Source: Gammaproteobacteria bacterium (lineage in GTDB: Bacteria; Pseudomonadota; Gammaproteobacteria; Burkholderiales; Rhodocyclaceae). From it: a DNA stretch of 64,000 nucleotides. The translations under genes were made by a program, and so were the position numbers. The first letter of the stretch is position 1; each line of letters opens with the position of its first letter. Where the stretch lies: positions 1 through 64,000 of the forward strand of contig JAHJHI010000038.1 in assembly GCA_018824085.1 (NCBI GenBank), in the 5' to 3' direction. Positions 975 to 15,101 of the stretch are shown in pieces. The notes beneath the pieces are model-generated. The model did not search any database. It was not told where the DNA came from and saw only the letters and a list, made by a program, of their open reading frames with translations.

Positions 975-1727
975 ATGAGTCGTCGGCAGCTCATTGAATC
1001 CCATGGCGCTACCTGTCTGAATTGGACGTGGAGCTGGTCGTTTGTGAACACCAAAAAGAAGGTGGTCATTTTCGGCGCTTGGGACCGAAACACAGACGGC
1101 AATACCTCTTTGATCCTGAGCGAAACCTGGGAACGTCGGCGAGGCAGGAAACAGCCAGCCTACAAACAGGCTCGCGAGCATATCCGGCTGGTGGAAGAGG
1201 AAGGGTATAGGTTAATGACCTTTCCCATGAAGTACTCCGACGCCAACAAAGATGAAAATGGCATCGGTCCTGCCAAGATTGATGGATTCGAGCCCCGGTT
1301 ACAGGAAAGAACCTTAAAGAGGGTGGGTGGTAGCTGGTACGCATCCGACGATTCCCTCGGCAGCCTCCTTCCAGAAGAAGTGGAGATGCCGGAGCAGTTC
1401 GTGGAAGGGGCATCGAAGACGGTTGCGGTAAACACATTTGAACGCAATGCAGAAGCGAGAGCTAAGTGCATTAAACGGCACGGGTACAAGTGCGCCGTGT
1501 GCGAGTTCGACTTCGCGGTCCACTATGGCTCTATTGGTGAGAAGTACATTCATGTGCACCATGTCGTTCCGCTGTCCGAGATAGGGCGCGAGTACATTCT
1601 GAACCCAATCAAGGATCTCGTGCCTGTTTGCCCGAATTGCCATGCGATCATTCATCGTACTCGGCCAGCCATGTCGGTCGAGCAATTGCGAAGGCATCTG
1701 GAAGAGCGAAATGCTAAGAACACATAA
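975..1727 (+). CDS. HNH endonuclease with an unassigned N-terminal module
   Basis: The product has 250 residues. The C-terminal third is a zinc-finger HNH nuclease: C173-x2-C176, the H195-H196 pair in an IHVHHVVPLSEI block, then DLVPVCPNCHAIIH with C219, C222, N221 and H227. The first 125 residues form a separate domain rich in tryptophan (WTWSW near 17-21, VIFGAWD near 31-37). It resembles the N-terminal regions of HNH proteins annotated as McrA-like, but I cannot name the fold. The likely role is cutting of foreign or modified DNA, by analogy with Type IV enzymes. The gene is visibly richer in A/T than its neighbours and sits between transposase remnants, which suggests horizontal transfer. 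No methyltransferase gene is adjacent, so a classical restriction-modification pair is unlikely. The ATG follows a GGGA-type ribosome site. Confidence 0.8.
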   Translation: MSRRQLIESHGATCLNWTWSWSFVNTKKKVVIFGAWDRNTDGNTSLILSETWERRRGRKQPAYKQAREHIRLVEEEGYRLMTFPMKYSDANKDENGIGPAKIDGFEPRLQERTLKRVGGSWYASDDSLGSLLPEEVEMPEQFVEGASKTVAVNTFERNAEARAKCIKRHGYKCAVCEFDFAVHYGSIGEKYIHVHHVVPLSEIGREYILNPIKDLVPVCPNCHAIIHRTRPAMSVEQLRRHLEERNAKNT

Positions 1728-1728
1728 C

Positions 1729-1808
1729 CAGTCGTATATGGACTCCCCCCAAAATCAAGACTGACCGATAGTCTGGTTTTTCCGGGTAGATCACTTGCAG
1801 TCGTATAT
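1729..1808. repeat. 11-bp direct repeat flanking a 58-bp spacer
   Basis: The sequence CAGTCGTATAT occurs at 1729-1739 and again at 1798-1808, immediately after the HNH gene. The spacer contains a C-run and a short hairpin followed by T residues. The pair could be an insertion scar or a duplication. No known element was recognised between the copies. Confidence 0.6.
1751..1782 (+). terminator. Weak candidate terminator of the HNH gene
   Basis: A five-base-pair stem (AGACT with AGTCT, seven-base loop) is followed by GG and five T residues, 23 bases after the HNH stop codon. Flanking A-run and T-run bases could extend the stem. The stem is short, so this is only a candidate. Confidence 0.35.
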
Positions 1809-2000
1809 CCGGCATCTGTTGTGGGTTCAAAGTGACCCGTGCCGACATGGAATCTGCGCGGGGAGCGCCAATCGCTACAAGCGGCACGCGTGCTGCTGCT
1901 GGAAGGGTTATCGGCGTTCATCCCCGTGGGTGTGACCCGGTTGGCCATGATGGGCGATCTGTCTCGTGGCAAGCGATGGTGGGCAGTGCTCGGGTGTTGC

Positions 2001-2516
2001 TCAGGCAGCCACGGCGAAGGCGGCCCGGTCGGCCTTTCTTGCCAGCCGGGGTTGGGGTTCGCCGTAGGCGGTGGCATCGCGCAGCACGCTGTAGCAGATG
2101 CGTGCGAGCTTGTTGGCCATCGCGCAGGCGGCCTTGTTGTGATGGGTGCGCGCCTGGATGTTCACCGCCCACGGGCGCAGCGCATCCAGACTTCGGTTTG
2201 CGCGCGCGGCCACGCTGGCCGCTCTGAGGCAGGCGCGCGCACCGTGCGTGAGCAGCATGCGCAGGTACTTGTCGCCCTGCTTCGAGATGCGCCCAAGCTT
2301 GCGGGTCAATCCCGACGAGTGTTCGCGTGGCGTCAGCCCGAACCAGCTCGCGAAGTGGCGAGCATCCCTGAAGTGGCGGACCGAGCCACCGGTGGCCGCC
2401 ACCATCGCAGTGGCGGTGAGCAGGCCGATGCCGGGAATGGTGAGCAGCCGGGAGCAGGCTTCGCTCTGACGCGCGAGCTGCGACAGTTCCTGCTCCAGCC
2501 GCGCGATGCGCGCTCT
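2001..2516 (-). pseudogene. IS110-family transposase, C-terminal fragment
   Basis: About 171 codons of the transposase C-terminus remain, read on the minus strand and ending at TGA at 2001. Recognisable blocks are the helix-hairpin-helix-like LTIPGIGLLTATAMVA, then GLTPREHSSG, then GRISKQGDKYLRMLLTHGAR, all typical of the IS110/IS1111 transposase_20 region. The N-terminal DEDD catalytic domain is missing. The frame stays open beyond 2516, but those codons no longer match the family. The fragment stops exactly where an IS3-like end begins, so a second insertion or recombination probably truncated it. It is non-functional by itself. Confidence 0.8.
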
Positions 2517-2540
2517 GAATCGCCCCGGGTTTCGCGGAGG
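2516..2540. mobile_element. Possible IS3-family terminal inverted repeat
   Basis: The sequence starting TGAATCGCCCCGGGTTTCGC closely resembles the TGAACCGCCCCGGGTTT ends I recall from IS3-family (IS51/IS2-like) elements. It lies at the broken edge of the IS110 fragment. No IS3 transposase is present between here and the DMT gene. The assignment is from memory of the motif only. Confidence 0.35.
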
Positions 2541-2626
2541 TGACATGCCCCGATTCCTCGAACCCCCGCACCAGTCGGAAGAAGGGCCGTTGGTCTCCAC
2601 CTGACTGCCACGAAACGAACAGCGCC

Positions 2627-3547
2627 TCAGCCAGGGCGCCTGCCGCGCCGGCGTCCTGGCCGCGCGGCGACGAAGGCGCCGGCGGATACGAAGAGCAGGC
2701 CGGCGATGAGCCAGCCGGACAGCGCTTCGCCCAGCAGCGGCGCGGCGGCGACGCCGGCGAGGACCGGCACCATCGCCACCAGCGCACCGGTACGTTCGGC
2801 GCCGAGGCTGTGCACGGCTTTCAGGAACAGCATCATCGCGATGAGGGTGACACCGGCGCCCTGGTACAGGCCCTGGGCGACCAGCATGCCGAGCGGCACG
2901 TCGCCGACGCCCTTGGGCAGCCACAGCAGATAGACCGGCATGAACAGCAGCGTGGAGGCGAGGGCGACGAAGCGGGTCAGCGTCCATGGGTCGTGCGCCC
3001 ATCGCTTCGCCAGCACGCTGTAGATCGCCCACGCGAGCGAGCCGCCGAGCAGCAGCGCGTCACCGACGAGTACCTCGGGCGTCCAGGCGTGGCCCCCGGC
3101 GACGTAGTGGGCTGCGACGCAGACTATGCCGACGGCGATGCCGGCAAGCCCGATCATGCGCGAGGCGTCAGGCCGCGCGCCGCCGAGTGCCCAGGCGACG
3201 GCGGCGATGAGGAAGGGCTGCATGCCGGGCAGCAGTATGGCGCCGTGCGCGGCCGGCGCGAATTTGAACGCGGCGAACACGAACACGCCATAGATCAGCC
3301 CGCCGAGCAGCGCGAGCACCCACATCTTCAGGTCGAACCAGATGCCGCGCGGCAGATCGCCGAGGAAGGGCAGCAACAGCAGTGACGCGGTGCCGAGACG
3401 CAGCGCGAGCGTGTCGTAGGGGGTGAGGGCGGTGACGCCGCCGAGCCGGGAGATGAGGATGAAGCCGGTCCAGATGGCGACGGTGCCGGCGGCGGCGAGA
3501 TAGCCGCCAAGGCGCGGGGAGGCGGTGGCGGCGGCAAGGTTGGGCAT
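2627..3547 (-). CDS. EamA/DMT-family transporter
   Basis: This is a drug/metabolite transporter superfamily protein of about 306 residues, at the normal family length. About ten hydrophobic helices form two EamA repeats; the first begins near AAAGTVAIWTGFILISRLGG and the second near GDALLLGGSLAWAIYSVLAK. Its substrate is unknown; relatives export amino acids or small metabolites across the inner membrane. The ATG at 3547 (MPNLAAATA) was chosen. A TTG seven codons earlier is possible but unneeded. The C-terminus ends in an arginine/glycine-rich tail (RPGRRRGRRPG) close to the mobile-element debris downstream, so the tail may have been altered by insertion. Confidence 0.85.
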   Translation of the reverse strand: MPNLAAATASPRLGGYLAAAGTVAIWTGFILISRLGGVTALTPYDTLALRLGTASLLLLPFLGDLPRGIWFDLKMWVLALLGGLIYGVFVFAAFKFAPAAHGAILLPGMQPFLIAAVAWALGGARPDASRMIGLAGIAVGIVCVAAHYVAGGHAWTPEVLVGDALLLGGSLAWAIYSVLAKRWAHDPWTLTRFVALASTLLFMPVYLLWLPKGVGDVPLGMLVAQGLYQGAGVTLIAMMLFLKAVHSLGAERTGALVAMVPVLAGVAAAPLLGEALSGWLIAGLLFVSAGAFVAARPGRRRGRRPG

Positions 3548-6738: not shown

Positions 6739-7290
6739 TCATACGCGCTGCAGGCCGCCGTCGACGAGGCGTACACGGTCTCCCGGCCGCAGCCCGGCGT
6801 CACTGCTTTCGCTGAAGGTACGCTGTTCACCGTTGTCCAGCCGCACGCTGATGCGGTAGCCCGTCACCTTCTGCGCGCGGTGCTTCTCGATCTCGTTGCC
6901 GGCGAGCGCGCCGCCGACGGCGCCGAGCACCGTGGCCGTCTTGCGTCCGCCGCCACTGCCGATCTGATTGCCCAGCAGGCCGCCCGCGACGCCGCCGACT
7001 GCAGCGCCCACGCCGGTCGGCGCGTCCCGGGACACGATGGGTTCGATCGCGATGACCTCGCCGGTGTCGGCACGTGCCACGGCAGGTGCCGCCGTGCGCG
7101 ACGATGCCGCGTCACGCACGGGGGATTGCCGCGCGGTCGAGGCCGGCGCCGGCTTGTCGGGTGCCGCGCTCGCCGGCCCGATCGGTATCGTGGCTTGCGG
7201 ATCGCAGGCGGCCAGCAACAGGCTGGCACTCAACAGGCAGGTGCCGGCCATGCGGCGGGCGAGCGGTACCGGTTCCGGATGTGGCGTCAT
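6739..7290 (-). CDS. Glycine-zipper outer-membrane lipoprotein
   Basis: The product has 183 residues. It has a lipoprotein signal peptide with lipobox LLAAC and modified cysteine C29. A low-complexity linker rich in Ala/Pro follows, then a glycine-zipper 2TM domain around residues 90-130 (GAAVGGVAGGLLGNQIGSGG and GAVGGALAGNEIEKH), as in SlyB/OsmB-like proteins. The tail (GYRISVRLDNGEQRTFSE) is the usual family ending. It probably sits in the outer membrane and contributes to envelope integrity. The ATG overlaps the stop of the upstream 53-residue gene by four bases (ATGA), so the two are likely translationally coupled. Confidence 0.82.
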   Translation of the reverse strand: MTPHPEPVPLARRMAGTCLLSASLLLAACDPQATIPIGPASAAPDKPAPASTARQSPVRDAASSRTAAPAVARADTGEVIAIEPIVSRDAPTGVGAAVGGVAGGLLGNQIGSGGGRKTATVLGAVGGALAGNEIEKHRAQKVTGYRISVRLDNGEQRTFSESSDAGLRPGDRVRLVDGGLQRV

Positions 7291-7448
7291 TCTTCTTCTC
7301 CCTTTTCGAGGTTGGCTACGGCGGCGCGAAGGGTCGAGCCGGCAGCGGCGGCGGCGCGCTCGACCGGACCGTCCTCCGGTTCGGTGGCCGCCAGCGCCAC
7401 GGTGGCGGCGAGCATCAGGGCGCACATGATTCGTTGCGGAACTGACAT
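7287..7448 (-). CDS. Small predicted secreted protein, 53 aa
   Basis: This short frame starts with ATG at 7448 after a GGAGAG ribosome site. It encodes a hydrophobic N-terminus (IMCALMLAATVALAATEPE) that reads as a signal peptide cut after ALA. The remaining exported piece, about 30 residues, is Ala/Glu-rich. Its stop overlaps the start of the glycine-zipper lipoprotein in an ATGA. I know no family for it. The ribosome site, signal peptide and coupling argue for a real gene; its shortness keeps confidence moderate. Confidence 0.55.
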   Translation of the reverse strand: MSVPQRIMCALMLAATVALAATEPEDGPVERAAAAAGSTLRAAVANLEKGEEE

Positions 7449-7687
7449 GGGTTTCAATCTCTCCGGCTGGATCCGATGCAACAGCGCGCAGCGCGCGCCA
7501 TTCGTGTGCTGCAAGCCTACGGTACGGGCGATGCCGACGAGGTCAGCGCGGCGTCCGCCCATGCGTGGGGGCTGTCCTACACTCGAACGTGCGGCCACTC
7601 GGCTGCTGTAGCATTCGCCGCGCATGACGCGCCGCGCGCATCCGCACGGCGCGGCCCCACAACGATTTGTTTTTCCCGGGATTCACC

Positions 7688-10980: not shown

Positions 10981-12120
10981 TCAGGCGTTGCGGCGGCGCA
11001 GGAAGAGGACCAGCAGGCCGGCGCCCATCATCAGCCAGGTGCCGGGTTCGGGCACCAGCGCCACGCTGGTGCGGCCGAACAGGTTCGCGTTTTCGCCATT
11101 GAGATAGGTCATGCCGTGATTCAGGTTGCCGGCGTTCGAATGCACGTCGATGAACGTCTGGCCGGCGGCCAGGACTTCGAACGTGAGGGTGGCCAGTTGC
11201 AGCGATGCCTGACCTTCGTCGCCGATGCTCTCGAACACCGAGCCCGCCACGTCAACGTCGTCGAAGAAGACGCTGTCGTCGTCCCACGGACCGGCGACGC
11301 TGACGTTCGCGAGCTTGAGCAGCGAGGTGTCGAAGCCGAGGTCGAAACCGAAGGCGAGCAGCTCGTCGGCGCCGTGGATGCCGCCGAACGGCGACATGAG
11401 CGCCACGGTGACGTCGAAGGTGGTGCCGATGCGGGCTGTCGTCGGGGCGCTCAGCTGTGCGTTGGCCGGCGCCAGGCTCAGTGCGAGGTTGTCGGCGTAG
11501 CCGTCGTTGGACGAGCCGCCGGCGCGCGACATCGACAGTTCGACCGTGGCCGACGTGGCGCCCAGCGGCACCCAGCCGGAAGACTCCCGGTACAGCATCG
11601 CCGTCGTGCTGTCGCGTTCGGAGGCCTGGACCGGGCCGACGATGTGCGTGCCGATGACATTGTTCGCGGCGTCGAGATAGGTCACGGACAGCGTGGCGTT
11701 GTCGTTCTGCGCGCCGTAGCCGCCGAGCCAGCCGGACAGCGAGAAGTAGGCGCCGGCGCCGTTGATGCCGCCGGTCGCGAAATCGAGGCTGATGGTCTGC
11801 GTGCCTTTGGACAGGCCGGTGTAACCACCGCCGAACAGGTTGGCGCCGCGGTCGGCCGGGCCCGGGTCGGTGCTCGTCGGGTAGCCGAGCGGACCGCCCA
11901 CCTCGTACGAAATGGCGGTCAGTTCGCCGGTGACGGCCCAGCCCGGCAACGAGTTGGCGAGGTAGCTGCCGTCACCGCCGGTCGCGCTTTCGGCGCCGCC
12001 GTTGAGGATCAGGTTGCTGTTCCATTCGGCGTGCACCTCGGCCGCCATCGGGGCGGTTGCCAGTGCGGCGACCAGCAGCGCGGCGCGCAGTGCGCGGCGG
12101 GGTGTGTTGTTGGTGTTCAT
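10981..12120 (-). CDS. PEP-CTERM surface protein with cohesin-like domain
   Basis: The product has 379 residues. A signal peptide (LRAALLVAALATAPMAAEVHA) precedes a jelly-roll-like region at about 33-220 (SNLILNGGAE, then an LSGWLGGYG segment). Residues 223-354 resemble a cohesin-type beta sandwich: ARIGTTFDVTVAL, LAFGFDLGFDTSLLKLANV, ASLQLATLTFEVLAAGQT. The end is a PEP-CTERM sorting signal: VPEPGTW, then a hydrophobic helix, then FLRRR. Exosortase/EpsH systems recognise such tails and release the protein to the surface or biofilm matrix; no exosortase gene is in the window. The gene starts 41 bases after the dockerin-bearing phosphatase on the same strand and is closed by a strong terminator. 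The cohesin call is from sequence pattern only and needs structural support. The sorting signal is clear. Confidence 0.85.
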   Translation of the reverse strand: MNTNNTPRRALRAALLVAALATAPMAAEVHAEWNSNLILNGGAESATGGDGSYLANSLPGWAVTGELTAISYEVGGPLGYPTSTDPGPADRGANLFGGGYTGLSKGTQTISLDFATGGINGAGAYFSLSGWLGGYGAQNDNATLSVTYLDAANNVIGTHIVGPVQASERDSTTAMLYRESSGWVPLGATSATVELSMSRAGGSSNDGYADNLALSLAPANAQLSAPTTARIGTTFDVTVALMSPFGGIHGADELLAFGFDLGFDTSLLKLANVSVAGPWDDDSVFFDDVDVAGSVFESIGDEGQASLQLATLTFEVLAAGQTFIDVHSNAGNLNHGMTYLNGENANLFGRTSVALVPEPGTWLMMGAGLLVLFLRRRNA

Positions 12121-12161
12121 GCGTTCGGCTCCGGATGTCTTGGAAAGTCGGTGGGCGGCGC

Positions 12162-15101
12162 TCATTGCTGCGTGTAGATCGCGTACCACAGCTTGTAGTC
12201 CTGCTGCGTGATGCAGCTGTCGCTGTCGAAATTGGCCGCGGCGACGTAGCGGGCGTCGCCGGCGCAGCTGCCCATCGCTGCGCGCTGGGCATTCCGGTCG
12301 GCAACGTCAACCTTGCCGTCGCCGTTGATGTCGCCCAGCTTCACCACCTTGAACGCGACGCGGGGCGCGCCTTCGGTGTAGCCGTCGTTGAGCAGGAAGG
12401 CGGCGAAGTATTCGCCGGTCGCCAGCCCGCTGAAGCTCGCGCTGCCCGACGTGGCGGCGGCGTAGGTCCATTTGACAGAATTGACGGTGCCCGGCGTCTG
12501 GCCCTTGCGGTAGATGCCGATCCAGTCCTTCGCGCCGCCCGGGGTGTTGGCCCAGTTCAGCACGACGGCCTCGGTGTCGAAGAACTCGCCCTTCGCGACG
12601 GCCATCGTTGCCGCGGGCGGCGGCAGTTGCGCGTCGCCGACCGAAAATTCGACCCGGTTCGACACTTCCGTGTAGGAGTCATTCGTATACATGGCCGCGA
12701 AGTAGTTGCCGTCGGCCAGGTCGTCGGTGACGCGCACGCTGCCGCTCGCCTTCCCTTCGAAGTAGTAGTAGCCGATCAGCTTGTCGACGCCCGGGGTGTC
12801 TCCCAGCCTGAAGATGCCGATGTAGTCCTTCGGGATGCCCGGGCCGTCGGCGAAGCTGATGTCGAAGTCTTCGCCCGGCTCCAGCGCCTGCCTGGCCATC
12901 GACACCGTGGCGATCCGGTCGCCGACCGAGAAGCCGATGCGGTCGATCAGTTCGAAGTAGCCGTCATTGACGAAGAAGCCGGCGTAGTAGTAGCCCTTGG
13001 CCAGACCGCTGAAGCTGACGCTGCCACTGGCGCTCGGCGCGTACTTGTACTGCGTGGAGCCGGTCTGCCCCGGTTCCTGGCCGACGCGGTAGATGCCGAT
13101 CCAGTCCTTGGCGCCGCCCGGCGCGTTGCTCCAGCTGAAGCCGGCGGTTTCGCCGACGGCCAGTTCGGTCTTGTTGATGCTGACGACGGGAATGTTGCCG
13201 ACGTAGAAGCTCACCCGGTCGGCGATTTCCGTGTAGCCGTCGTCGGTGAAGAAGGCGGCGTAGTACTCGACGCCGGCCGCCAGACCCGAGAACTCGACGT
13301 GGCCGTTGGGGCCCGGCACGTAGGCGAATTTTTGCGAGGTGACGCTGCCGGGTTTCTGGCCGGCCTTGTAGACCCCGATCCAGTCCTTGGGCTTGCCGTA
13401 GCCGTTGGCGTAATCGACGCGCACCTTCTCGCCCGGCGCGAATGCCCTCTTCGACAGGCTCAGGGACGGCGCGCCGGTGGTGCTGCCTTCCACCTTGAAG
13501 GACAGGCTGTCCGACCAGGGCGACCACTCCACGTTGCGGTCACGGTGGCGCACGCGCACGAAGTAGTCGCCGTTGGGCAGGCCGAATTCGGGCACCTCGT
13601 AGGCCATGATGTCCAGGCCGGCGTTGATGTCCACCGGTTCGTAGTCCGGCGCGCCGGTGTCGCCATAAATGTTCTCGTAATCGCGCACGCTGTCCACCAC
13701 GAGGTCGGTGAAGCTGTCATTGCGCGAGAACTGGAACTGCGTGCTGTTCAGTTCTTCCTGGAAGGTCGACTCGAAGTCCGAGCTGGTGAAGGTGTAGGGC
13801 AGCGTGACCGGGCCGTCGAGCGTGTTGGTCAGTTGCGGCTTCTCCGGCGCGCCGTGGTTCAGGTTGCGATGGAATTCGTCGGTCTGCCGGCTGGTGTAGA
13901 CGAAGCCGAGCTTGGGGTGCGCTTCGGAGTACGAGCGGACCGTCATTTCCTTGGTCGCCACGTCGATCTCGACCAGCTGCCAGGTCCAGTTGGCGATCGT
14001 CTTCTGGACGTCGTCGAAGTCCTTCTCGGTGGATTGGCCCCAGTACTGGTCCCACGCGGTGCCGCCGGAAATCATGTGGTAGGTGGGCCACTCGCGGGTC
14101 TGGCCGCGGGCGTACAGATGGTGATGGCCGGCGACGTTGAGCACGTGCTTGCGCGACACGGACAGGATGGGCATGACCTGGTCGCGGAACCAGCCCGAGA
14201 TGTCGCCCACATACTGTTCCGCCTGGTACGGACGGTGCACCACGCTGATGACCCAATCCACTTGCGGGTCGGCGTCGGCGGCGGTGATCACGCTGCGCGC
14301 CCATTCCTTCTGCGTGGCGGTGGGGGCTTCGCTGTCGAGGTGGATGAACAGCACGCGACCCACGTGGTTGGCGTAGTAGCGCTCATCCGGTCCCGGTGCG
14401 TTGCCCTTGTAGTTGATGCCGTCGATGAAGAAGTGCGCCTTCCAGTTGGTCATCCCGTTGTCGTAGTAGACCTCGTGATTGCCGATCGTCGTCATGATGG
14501 GCACGTTCTTCGACAGCGGCTCGGACTGCCGGAAGTGCAGGTTCTCGTAGTGGTCCAGCGTGCCGACGTCGACCTGGTCGCCGTCGTTGATGACGATGTT
14601 GATGACCTCTTCCAGCGGCTGGCCGTACAGCGATTCGATCTTCGCGCGCGCCGCGTTCAGCATCGTCAGGTAGCGGCTCTGGTCGCGGATCTGGTGGTCG
14701 CCCGCGACGAGGATGCGGTACTTGCCGCTGACCTTCGACGAGTCCGGCTGCGTGCGGAAGCGGAACACGTCCGATACCGCCGTGGCGGTGCGCACGCGGT
14801 AGTAGTAGAAGGTGTCCGGCGCAAGGCCTGACAGCTGGACGCCGTGGAAGAAGTAGTTCGACGACAGCTGCTGGTTCGAGCCGCTGGCCTGCCGGTCGAG
14901 CTTGCCTTCGGACGTGCCGTATTCGACGATCGAACTGCCGGGCGTCGACGTTTTCCAGCTCACCCAGATGGATGTCGCGGTGGGCGTCTGGAGATAGGGG
15001 ACCATGTCGGTCGCCCAGGCGGCGTTGCACGCCAGGAGTACGGCTGCCAGGACGATGCGGCCATACAGGCGCGCGATCAGGTTGCGGAAGGGGTGCGTCA
15101 C
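12162..15101 (-). CDS. Secreted purple-acid-phosphatase-like enzyme with four Ig-like repeats and a dockerin
   Basis: The product has 979 residues, with a signal peptide cut near AWA-30. Residues 33-117 form a fibronectin-III-like domain, as in purple acid phosphatases. The calcineurin-type metallophosphatase spans about 128-400, with D135, the NDGDQVD block at 172-178, GNHE at 207-210, H289 and the GHHH motif at 325-328. Four repeats of about 90 residues follow at 545-919, each with a K-D-W/Y-I-G-I-Y/F core. Residues 921-979 look like a type I dockerin: loop 1 has D924, N926, D928, D932 and D935, and loop 2 has N957, D959, D961, T965 and D968, 33 residues apart. Likely roles are phosphate release from organic phosphates and docking to a cohesin. 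The GTG start follows GAGG at good spacing. It is the first gene of a unit with the PEP-CTERM protein. Confidence 0.85.
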   Translation of the reverse strand: MTHPFRNLIARLYGRIVLAAVLLACNAAWATDMVPYLQTPTATSIWVSWKTSTPGSSIVEYGTSEGKLDRQASGSNQQLSSNYFFHGVQLSGLAPDTFYYYRVRTATAVSDVFRFRTQPDSSKVSGKYRILVAGDHQIRDQSRYLTMLNAARAKIESLYGQPLEEVINIVINDGDQVDVGTLDHYENLHFRQSEPLSKNVPIMTTIGNHEVYYDNGMTNWKAHFFIDGINYKGNAPGPDERYYANHVGRVLFIHLDSEAPTATQKEWARSVITAADADPQVDWVISVVHRPYQAEQYVGDISGWFRDQVMPILSVSRKHVLNVAGHHHLYARGQTREWPTYHMISGGTAWDQYWGQSTEKDFDDVQKTIANWTWQLVEIDVATKEMTVRSYSEAHPKLGFVYTSRQTDEFHRNLNHGAPEKPQLTNTLDGPVTLPYTFTSSDFESTFQEELNSTQFQFSRNDSFTDLVVDSVRDYENIYGDTGAPDYEPVDINAGLDIMAYEVPEFGLPNGDYFVRVRHRDRNVEWSPWSDSLSFKVEGSTTGAPSLSLSKRAFAPGEKVRVDYANGYGKPKDWIGVYKAGQKPGSVTSQKFAYVPGPNGHVEFSGLAAGVEYYAAFFTDDGYTEIADRVSFYVGNIPVVSINKTELAVGETAGFSWSNAPGGAKDWIGIYRVGQEPGQTGSTQYKYAPSASGSVSFSGLAKGYYYAGFFVNDGYFELIDRIGFSVGDRIATVSMARQALEPGEDFDISFADGPGIPKDYIGIFRLGDTPGVDKLIGYYYFEGKASGSVRVTDDLADGNYFAAMYTNDSYTEVSNRVEFSVGDAQLPPPAATMAVAKGEFFDTEAVVLNWANTPGGAKDWIGIYRKGQTPGTVNSVKWTYAAATSGSASFSGLATGEYFAAFLLNDGYTEGAPRVAFKVVKLGDINGDGKVDVADRNAQRAAMGSCAGDARYVAAANFDSDSCITQQDYKLWYAIYTQQ
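12345..13469 (-). repeat. Four tandem DWIGIY-type protein repeats within the phosphatase gene
   Basis: These are coding repeats at residues 545-635, 637-727, 731-822 and 831-919 of the phosphatase. Each has an APGE-like start, a G-x-x-KDWIGIY strand, a G-Q-x-PG turn, a G-SVSFSGLA strand and a FF-DGYTE ending. They look like Ig-like or SKICH-like beta modules. They are diverged at the DNA level, so the duplication is not recent. Confidence 0.8.

Follow-up and report, generated by a model that had tools for sequence, protein, structure and literature searches.

Within the window, by which we mean the whole 64,000-nucleotide stretch of DNA that was analysed, two neighbouring genes on the reverse strand encode a phosphatase ending in a dockerin (gene 1) and a putative anchor protein with a cohesin domain and a PEP-CTERM tail (gene 2). 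Their features are as follows.

12162..15101 (-), gene 1, metallophosphatase with a C-terminal dockerin; open reading frame of 979 amino acids, GTG start as listed
14751..14990 (-), Pur_ac_phosph_N (fn3-like) domain, gene 1 residues 38-117; Pfam PF16656, E 8e-20
14115..14717 (-), calcineurin-like phosphoesterase domain, gene 1 residues 129-329; Pfam Metallophos PF00149, E 9.6e-10
12357..13466 (-), repeat region with four KD[WY]IG[IV][YF] motifs, gene 1 residues ~546-915, limits set by eye
12165..12344 (-), dockerin of the window subtype, gene 1 residues 920-979; profile A2, alignments A3 and A6
12297..12332 (-), calcium loop 1, DINGDGKVDVAD, gene 1 residues 924-935; loop pattern match
12198..12233 (-), calcium loop 2, NFDSDSCITQQD, gene 1 residues 957-968; loop pattern match
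12121..12161 (-), gap of 41 bases between gene 1 and gene 2, in which no terminator-like site was found
10981..12120 (-), gene 2, anchor protein; open reading frame of 379 amino acids, ATG at 12120
11455..12024 (-), N-terminal beta-sandwich with a carbohydrate-binding fold, gene 2 residues 33-222; AF2, Foldseek
11044..11463 (-), cohesin domain ending with the PEP motif, gene 2 residues 220-359; profile A4, AF2 model, Foldseek
10984..11055 (-), PEP-CTERM exosortase sorting tail, gene 2 residues 356-379; PF07589, TIGR02595
10934..10955 (-), terminator-like site directly 3' of gene 2, a 9-pair stem with a T-rich tail

The product of gene 1 begins with a signal peptide, as judged by eye, and its phosphoesterase domain contains the motifs GDHQ, GDQVD, GNHE, VVH and GHHH; with this domain and these metal-ligand motifs it is predicted to be a PAP-like metallophosphoesterase. 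True purple acid phosphatases have a Tyr ligand three residues past the Asp of the second motif (GDxxY); in gene 1, GDQVD replaces GDxxY and the tyrosine is absent, so that gene 1 does not qualify as a purple acid phosphatase sensu stricto. A PDB sequence search with the phosphatase gave no useful match. The KD[WY]IG[IV][YF] motifs start at residues 572, 665, 758 and 858 and are taken as marking four putative repeats. At the C-terminus lie two 12-residue calcium loops with Asp/Asn ligands, starting at residues 924 and 957 and thus spaced 33 residues apart, which is the arrangement of a type I dockerin. Gene 1 was alone among the 362 open reading frames of the window (at least 60 amino acids) in having two loop-pattern matches 20-40 residues apart, and its dockerin contains two cysteine residues. 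Pfam analysis of gene 1 alone placed the dockerin under the cut-off (E 0.22). Profile A2, consisting of six dockerin rows with the window sequence among them, matched solved dockerins in the PDB with a best E of 7.8e-13, and other EF-hand proteins more weakly.

The gene 2 product consists, in order, of a signal peptide, a CBM-like domain, the cohesin and the PEP-CTERM region. It has the features of an exosortase substrate, namely a signal peptide and a hydrophobic helix (both judged by eye), a PEP motif, a basic tail and an exosortase in the same genome, and PF07589 matched its tail from residue 356 above the cut-off (E 4.2e-6). NCBIfam analysis of 10 anchors returned PEP-CTERM families only, all under their cut-offs except TIGR02595 in eight of the ten. 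For the cohesin, Pfam did not list PF00963 on gene 2, phmmer with the single gene 2 sequence matched no cohesin in the PDB, and one of nine other anchors scanned passed the PF00963 cut-off (G056, E 4e-15). Profile A4, made from 23 cohesin-domain sequences including that of the window, matched 31 PDB chains with E no higher than 1 (best 3l8q, E 7.4e-7); 28 of them are named scaffoldin, cellulosome anchoring or NagJ proteins, and the remaining three are viral fibres with E above 0.6. An AF2 model made from the single sequence had a mean pLDDT of 65, six of its 14 blocks of ten residues exceeding 80, and the best eight PDB matches found with it by Foldseek were all cohesins (E 1.6e-5 to 9.3e-4), including 2vo8 (E 1.6e-5), 5lxv, 2w1n, 2jh2 and 1g1k. 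The first matches to other domains, at E about 1e-3, were to a CLIPPER adhesin domain and to an S-layer protein. Profile and model agree in suggesting that the domain adopts a cohesin fold.

The N-terminal domain of gene 2 (residues 33-222) was modelled with a pLDDT of 90 from 18 sequences. Foldseek matched it to the Fbs1 sugar-binding domain and to CBM61, CBM16, CBM22 and CBM4, as well as to phage tailspike and meprin domains; Pfam gave no family over these residues, and a PDB search with the sequence profile of the domain gave no useful match. By its modelled fold, the domain thus appears to be carbohydrate-binding-like. A related-locus search with gene 2 returned hardly any relatives of the cohesin; it brought up relatives of the tail and of the N-terminal domain, the latter from Sulfuricella, Lentzea, Crossiella, Chloroflexi, Acidobacteria and others. 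The anchor of a relative of the same genus (G363) is without the CBM-like domain and matches only from query residue 215. Because this relative has the phosphatase-dockerin and the cohesin-PEP-CTERM protein all the same, the cohesin and the tail look like the core of the anchor. Scaffoldins carry a CBM, and a CBM-like domain joined to a cohesin would resemble a scaffoldin in miniature.

The original prediction had described a secreted metallophosphatase ending in a dockerin and, 41 bases away, a gene for a cohesin-like beta sandwich with an exosortase sorting tail; each of these parts was recovered here, with gene 2 downstream of gene 1 on the same strand. The carbohydrate-binding-like domain at residues 33-222 of gene 2 is an addition to that description. 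The two genes are probably one transcript. Terminator-like sites were not enriched over the scanned stretch (4 found, 3.1 expected).

The genome to which the window belongs encodes two exosortases and at least 68 PEP-CTERM matches at a loose limit. On contig C48 it has a second pair, of another subtype than that of the window: the first gene encodes an amidase whose C-terminus is a dockerin (PF00404, E 1e-12), and the next gene a cohesin-PEP-CTERM protein (PF00963, E 0.006, below the cut-off). Cohesin profile A1 and dockerin profile A3 found two dockerins and two PEP-CTERM cohesins in this genome, paired one to one; profile A3 detected no dockerin beyond those of the window and C48. The genome has three cohesin-like domains (window, C48 and C44), of which those on C48 and C44 are below the Pfam cut-off. 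The one on C44 lies at the C-terminus of open reading frame 1444-3249 (-) at locus L003 (G000:C44:4320-7586), as a cohesin-like stretch (PF00963, E 0.007) in a protein that we read as secretin-like from its sequence. Many frames of ~750-900 amino acids in the order match Cohesin strongly and may be of the same kind.

We then examined how often the pair occurs elsewhere. A search of 369 genomes of the class with profile A1 (six rows) gave matches in 19; setting aside the window's genome and G015, both of which contributed sequences to A1, left 17 loci, none of them contained in cohesin query A1 or dockerin profile A2. A same-strand dockerin open reading frame (A2, above 17 bits) was present at 14 of these 17 loci, with gaps of 6-793 bases, compared with none of 40 control PEP-CTERM loci without a cohesin. 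The misses were L148, L154, where the dockerin is two genes away, and L156, which has a phosphatase whose dockerin is below the threshold. L148 (G517, 7009-7659) holds a cohesin-PEP-CTERM gene in a genome without a dockerin at the limit used. The controls were chosen from the best-scoring rows among the PEP-CTERM matches listed and came from 18 of 23 genomes; 12 of the 17 cohort genomes supplied 24 of them, and 39 of the 40 showed a PEP-CTERM-like open reading frame by a simple pattern. The 17-bit threshold was fixed only after the first dockerin scores had been seen; thresholds from 8 to 25 bits gave 16 to 12 of 17 loci paired and always 0/40 controls, the best control score being 6.1 bits, and with filters off 15/17 instead of 14/17 loci were paired at 17 bits. 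Fisher's test on 14/17 against 0/40 gave p 9e-11, a rough guide, as the genomes share history and some controls are from other genomes.

In surveys of the order and the phylum with the wider profile A4, 6/15 further small cohesin loci were paired at the same threshold. Among the nine misses, L158, L160 and L169 reach contig ends, and L165 has a neighbouring dockerin by profile A3 only. The rows already known (G000, G015, G016, G056, G193 and G530) were left out of the 15, and five matches in frames of 768-837 amino acids (G028:C2, G213, G216, G206 and G220) were dropped from the order survey as secretin-like by length. From the dockerin side, a cohesin-PEP-CTERM neighbour was found in four of 18 stretches from the order (G056, G016, G015 and G193). 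These were 20 stretches fetched from Pfam-dockerin rows, minus G363 and with two of G125:C22 counted once; they were of our own choosing, with very long dockerin frames mostly left out. A cohesin predicts a dockerin neighbour far better than the reverse. The gene pair does co-occur in other genomes, in the general form of a dockerin gene with a cohesin-PEP-CTERM gene; the exact phosphatase pair is rare, with one relative in the same genus (G363). Judged from sequence, the window pair is one member of this recurrent dockerin/cohesin-PEP-CTERM gene pair.

Some loci are arranged differently. At L157 (7076-8134, G528) tandem cohesin genes lie behind one dockerin gene, with a PEP-CTERM-like tail on one of them only, and at L149 (G632) a single cohesin gene lies between two same-strand dockerin genes. 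L158 (6941-7875) and L160 (1-935), on G032:C31 and C35, hold cohesin genes that share end sequence and are cut at the contig ends, with a PEP-CTERM match below the threshold inside the frame of L158. A dockerin and a cohesin are adjacent within one polypeptide at G193:C1 6590-7180, G224:C26 114677-115240 and G254:C28 74440-75003, in frames 2,508 to 8,702 amino acids long. Lipoprotein-like genes lie immediately 3' of dockerin genes at L105 (5119-6027, -) and L116 (4620-5543, -), an odd repetition of position; their reading as alternative cohesin anchors was unsupported (hhalign probability 0.4).

Pfam analysis of 20 dockerin partners revealed an enzyme domain in ten: amidase, PAP-like phosphatase, reprolysin, GDSL lipase, GSDH, subtilase, C25 peptidase, phospholipase-C-type phosphoesterase, Exo_endo_phos and M9 collagenase. 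No cellulase was found among the 20. Three had no Pfam match, and the other non-enzyme partners had Ig, PKD, thrombospondin, EF-hand, NHL or IgGFc-binding matches; in L162, L103 and L165, partners scanned in addition to these 20, there were EF-hand, Ig/PKD/cadherin and RHS matches. Most dockerins are C-terminal: in 24 of 28 pairs the protein ends 10 residues or fewer beyond the dockerin, the exceptions being N-terminal in L145 and L147, internal in L143 and 35 residues before the end in L165. At least two cysteine residues were present in the dockerin stretch of 24/28 pairs, suggesting that these dockerins may be stapled by a disulfide bond.

The similarity matrices of the cohesins and dockerins were correlated across the 28 pairs (Mantel r 0.61), with 0/20,000 permutations as high, and remained so when the window subtype was removed (r 0.59, n=24, 0/20,000 permutations). 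Genome G032 likewise carries two pairs (C17 and C26). The window pair resembled G032:C26 with similarities of 0.31 for the cohesin and 0.70 for the dockerin, compared with 0.08 and 0.15 for G032:C17. The C48 pair resembled G032:C17 with 0.27 and 0.30, compared with 0.07 and 0.24 for G032:C26, the dockerin values differing by a small gap. Thus like subtype pairs with like across the two genomes that hold both. Species history is an unlikely source of this co-variation, which can come from joint inheritance of linked genes; binding would be the simplest, if not a proven, reason for the two genes to be inherited jointly.

A plasmid search with the window dockerin as the sole query matched one record, a phospholipase C of Eleftheria terrae with 49% identity; a subtype-I dockerin had no match among plasmids. 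The downstream neighbour of the Eleftheria gene, annotated as a PEP-CTERM sorting domain-containing protein, scored 38 bits with cohesin profile A1 and 28 with A4, and its cohesin shares the motifs DDS and LL[AS]FGF with the window type. Five window-type pairs are known (window, G363, G032:C26, G513 and Eleftheria), and in four of the five the enzyme is a phosphatase or phospholipase C. The G513 partner has FG-GAP, TSP_3 and DUF11 matches, with a phospholipase A2 match below the cut-off. The dockerin subtype of the window is rare, being found in 2/258 genomes of the class, namely the window's own and G513, both of which are in the query; in the family, a close cohesin was found in 1/101 genomes besides the window's own.

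From the domains, gene layout, recurrence, linkage, co-variation and exosortase genes, which were observed directly, we infer with good confidence that a cohesin protein, once processed by an exosortase, keeps its dockerin-tagged neighbour at the envelope, the inferred steps being export, binding, calcium dependence, location and benefit. The phosphatase would be exported via its signal peptide, and calcium would order its C-terminal dockerin. The gene 2 product would also be exported, carrying its one cohesin, and an exosortase would process the PEP-CTERM tail to leave an anchor in the envelope or in the layer of exopolysaccharide, which the carbohydrate-binding-like domain may additionally grip. 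Binding of the cohesin to the dockerin would then keep the phosphatase cell-bound, and the phosphate it releases would stay nearby. Similar pairs with matched cohesin-dockerin subtypes are found again with other exoenzymes and with Ig/PKD-type or unassigned secreted proteins. The surface-docked phosphatase of the original prediction thus appears better founded than before.

Counted against the pair model are the 6/15 loci of the order and phylum surveys, the 4/18 from the dockerin side and the genome without a dockerin (G517), together with the ten of 20 partners without a clear enzyme domain, the rare dockerin subtype, joint inheritance, the single-sequence cohesin model with pLDDT 65 and the lack of a Pfam cohesin call. 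With these in mind, we think it likely, on balance, that exosortase-bearing Proteobacteria run an insulated plug-and-socket display, in which every single-cohesin PEP-CTERM anchor is encoded next to its own dockerin-tagged partner, an exoenzyme or an adhesin-like protein, and several mutually specific subtypes can coexist in one genome. The window anchor would be a one-protein mini-scaffoldin, with a CBM-like domain, a cohesin and a sorting tail.

Anchoring may instead be transient, with the pair binding during export and the PEP-CTERM cohesin retaining the enzyme, at the inner membrane or within the periplasm, up to the point where exosortase processing or another secretion step frees both. 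The fate of PEP-CTERM proteins after processing is reportedly unsettled, and the window's own genome has the protein read as secretin-like with a cohesin-like C-terminus (L003). Haft 2006 (PMC1569441), in the parts covered, deems cleavage of the anchoring sequence likely. A dedicated partner for each subtype and the CBM-like domain of the window anchor would suit a lasting anchor better, and we regard the transient form as improbable. It is also doubtful, to a high degree, that the dockerin docks on another cohesin, such as the second anchor or the secretin-like protein, or on other cells, with plugs and sockets interchangeable; the three cohesin-like domains of the genome would allow this, yet it holds two distinct subtypes, each adjoining its matching partner. 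That the two proteins are generic envelope modules, adjacent through co-regulation without pairing, is very improbable. In its favour, Cohesin matches do occur in other proteins (for example the many ~750-900-residue frames), and dockerins without a cohesin-PEP-CTERM neighbour are common (14/18 stretches); dockerins at 14/17 cohesin loci compared with 0/40 ordinary PEP-CTERM loci, and subtypes that co-vary across the genomes holding both, argue against it.

To our knowledge, what PEP-CTERM proteins do is largely open. The recurrent gene pair offers a testable function for cohesin/dockerin and PEP-CTERM modules, namely that Gram-negative cells use them to display secreted proteins non-covalently, and points to a little-known way of holding such proteins at the cell surface. 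One genome with two matched subtypes is a ready specificity test, and cysteine-bearing dockerins could serve display technology. A full-text literature search, whose scope did not extend to Peer 2009 and Haft 2012, found no report combining PEP-CTERM with a dockerin or cohesin domain; for exosortase with dockerin it returned ANME archaea only, and for phosphatase with cohesin-dockerin nothing related. The words 'dockerin' and 'cohesin' have 0 occurrences in the main text of PMC1569441. The PEP-CTERM/exosortase system described in the parts covered of that paper is like the present one in the tail of the anchor and the exosortases of the genome.

In ANME archaea, cohesin/dockerin proteins are proposed to attach functional proteins to the outer cell layer (PMC9012536 and PMC5244752, parts covered). 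These differ from the pairs described here in being archaeal, with an S-layer and scaffoldin-like multi-cohesin proteins, and a one-to-one gene pair is absent from the parts of these papers covered; the covered part of PMC5244752 describes the function of non-cellulosomal cohesins and dockerins as not known.

Saccharophagus degradans is a marine proteobacterium. Two dockerin-like and six cohesin-like open reading frames are described for it in the covered part of PMC2386152, whose authors ask there, without giving an answer, whether such modules anchor enzymes. The modules and the idea of anchoring are alike, and the parts of that paper covered have neither a gene pair nor PEP-CTERM.

Peer 2009 reportedly described scattered non-cellulosomal cohesin- and dockerin-like modules outside cellulose degraders. 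The occurrence of such modules outside cellulose degraders is alike; here they form a gene pair that recurs and carries a sorting tail.

In the clostridial cellulosome, dockerin-bearing enzymes sit on the cohesins of a scaffoldin, and classical cohesins bind dockerins tightly (PMC9012536, parts covered). The window pair is not a cellulosome, having a single cohesin in its anchor and no cellulase among the 20 partners scanned. Unlike the cellulosome, the window anchor has one cohesin for one partner in the same gene pair and an exosortase tail, and the pairs here have cysteine residues in most dockerins. As in the clostridial system, however, the window pair has its dockerin at the end of the enzyme, and the cohesin and a CBM-like domain on the partner.
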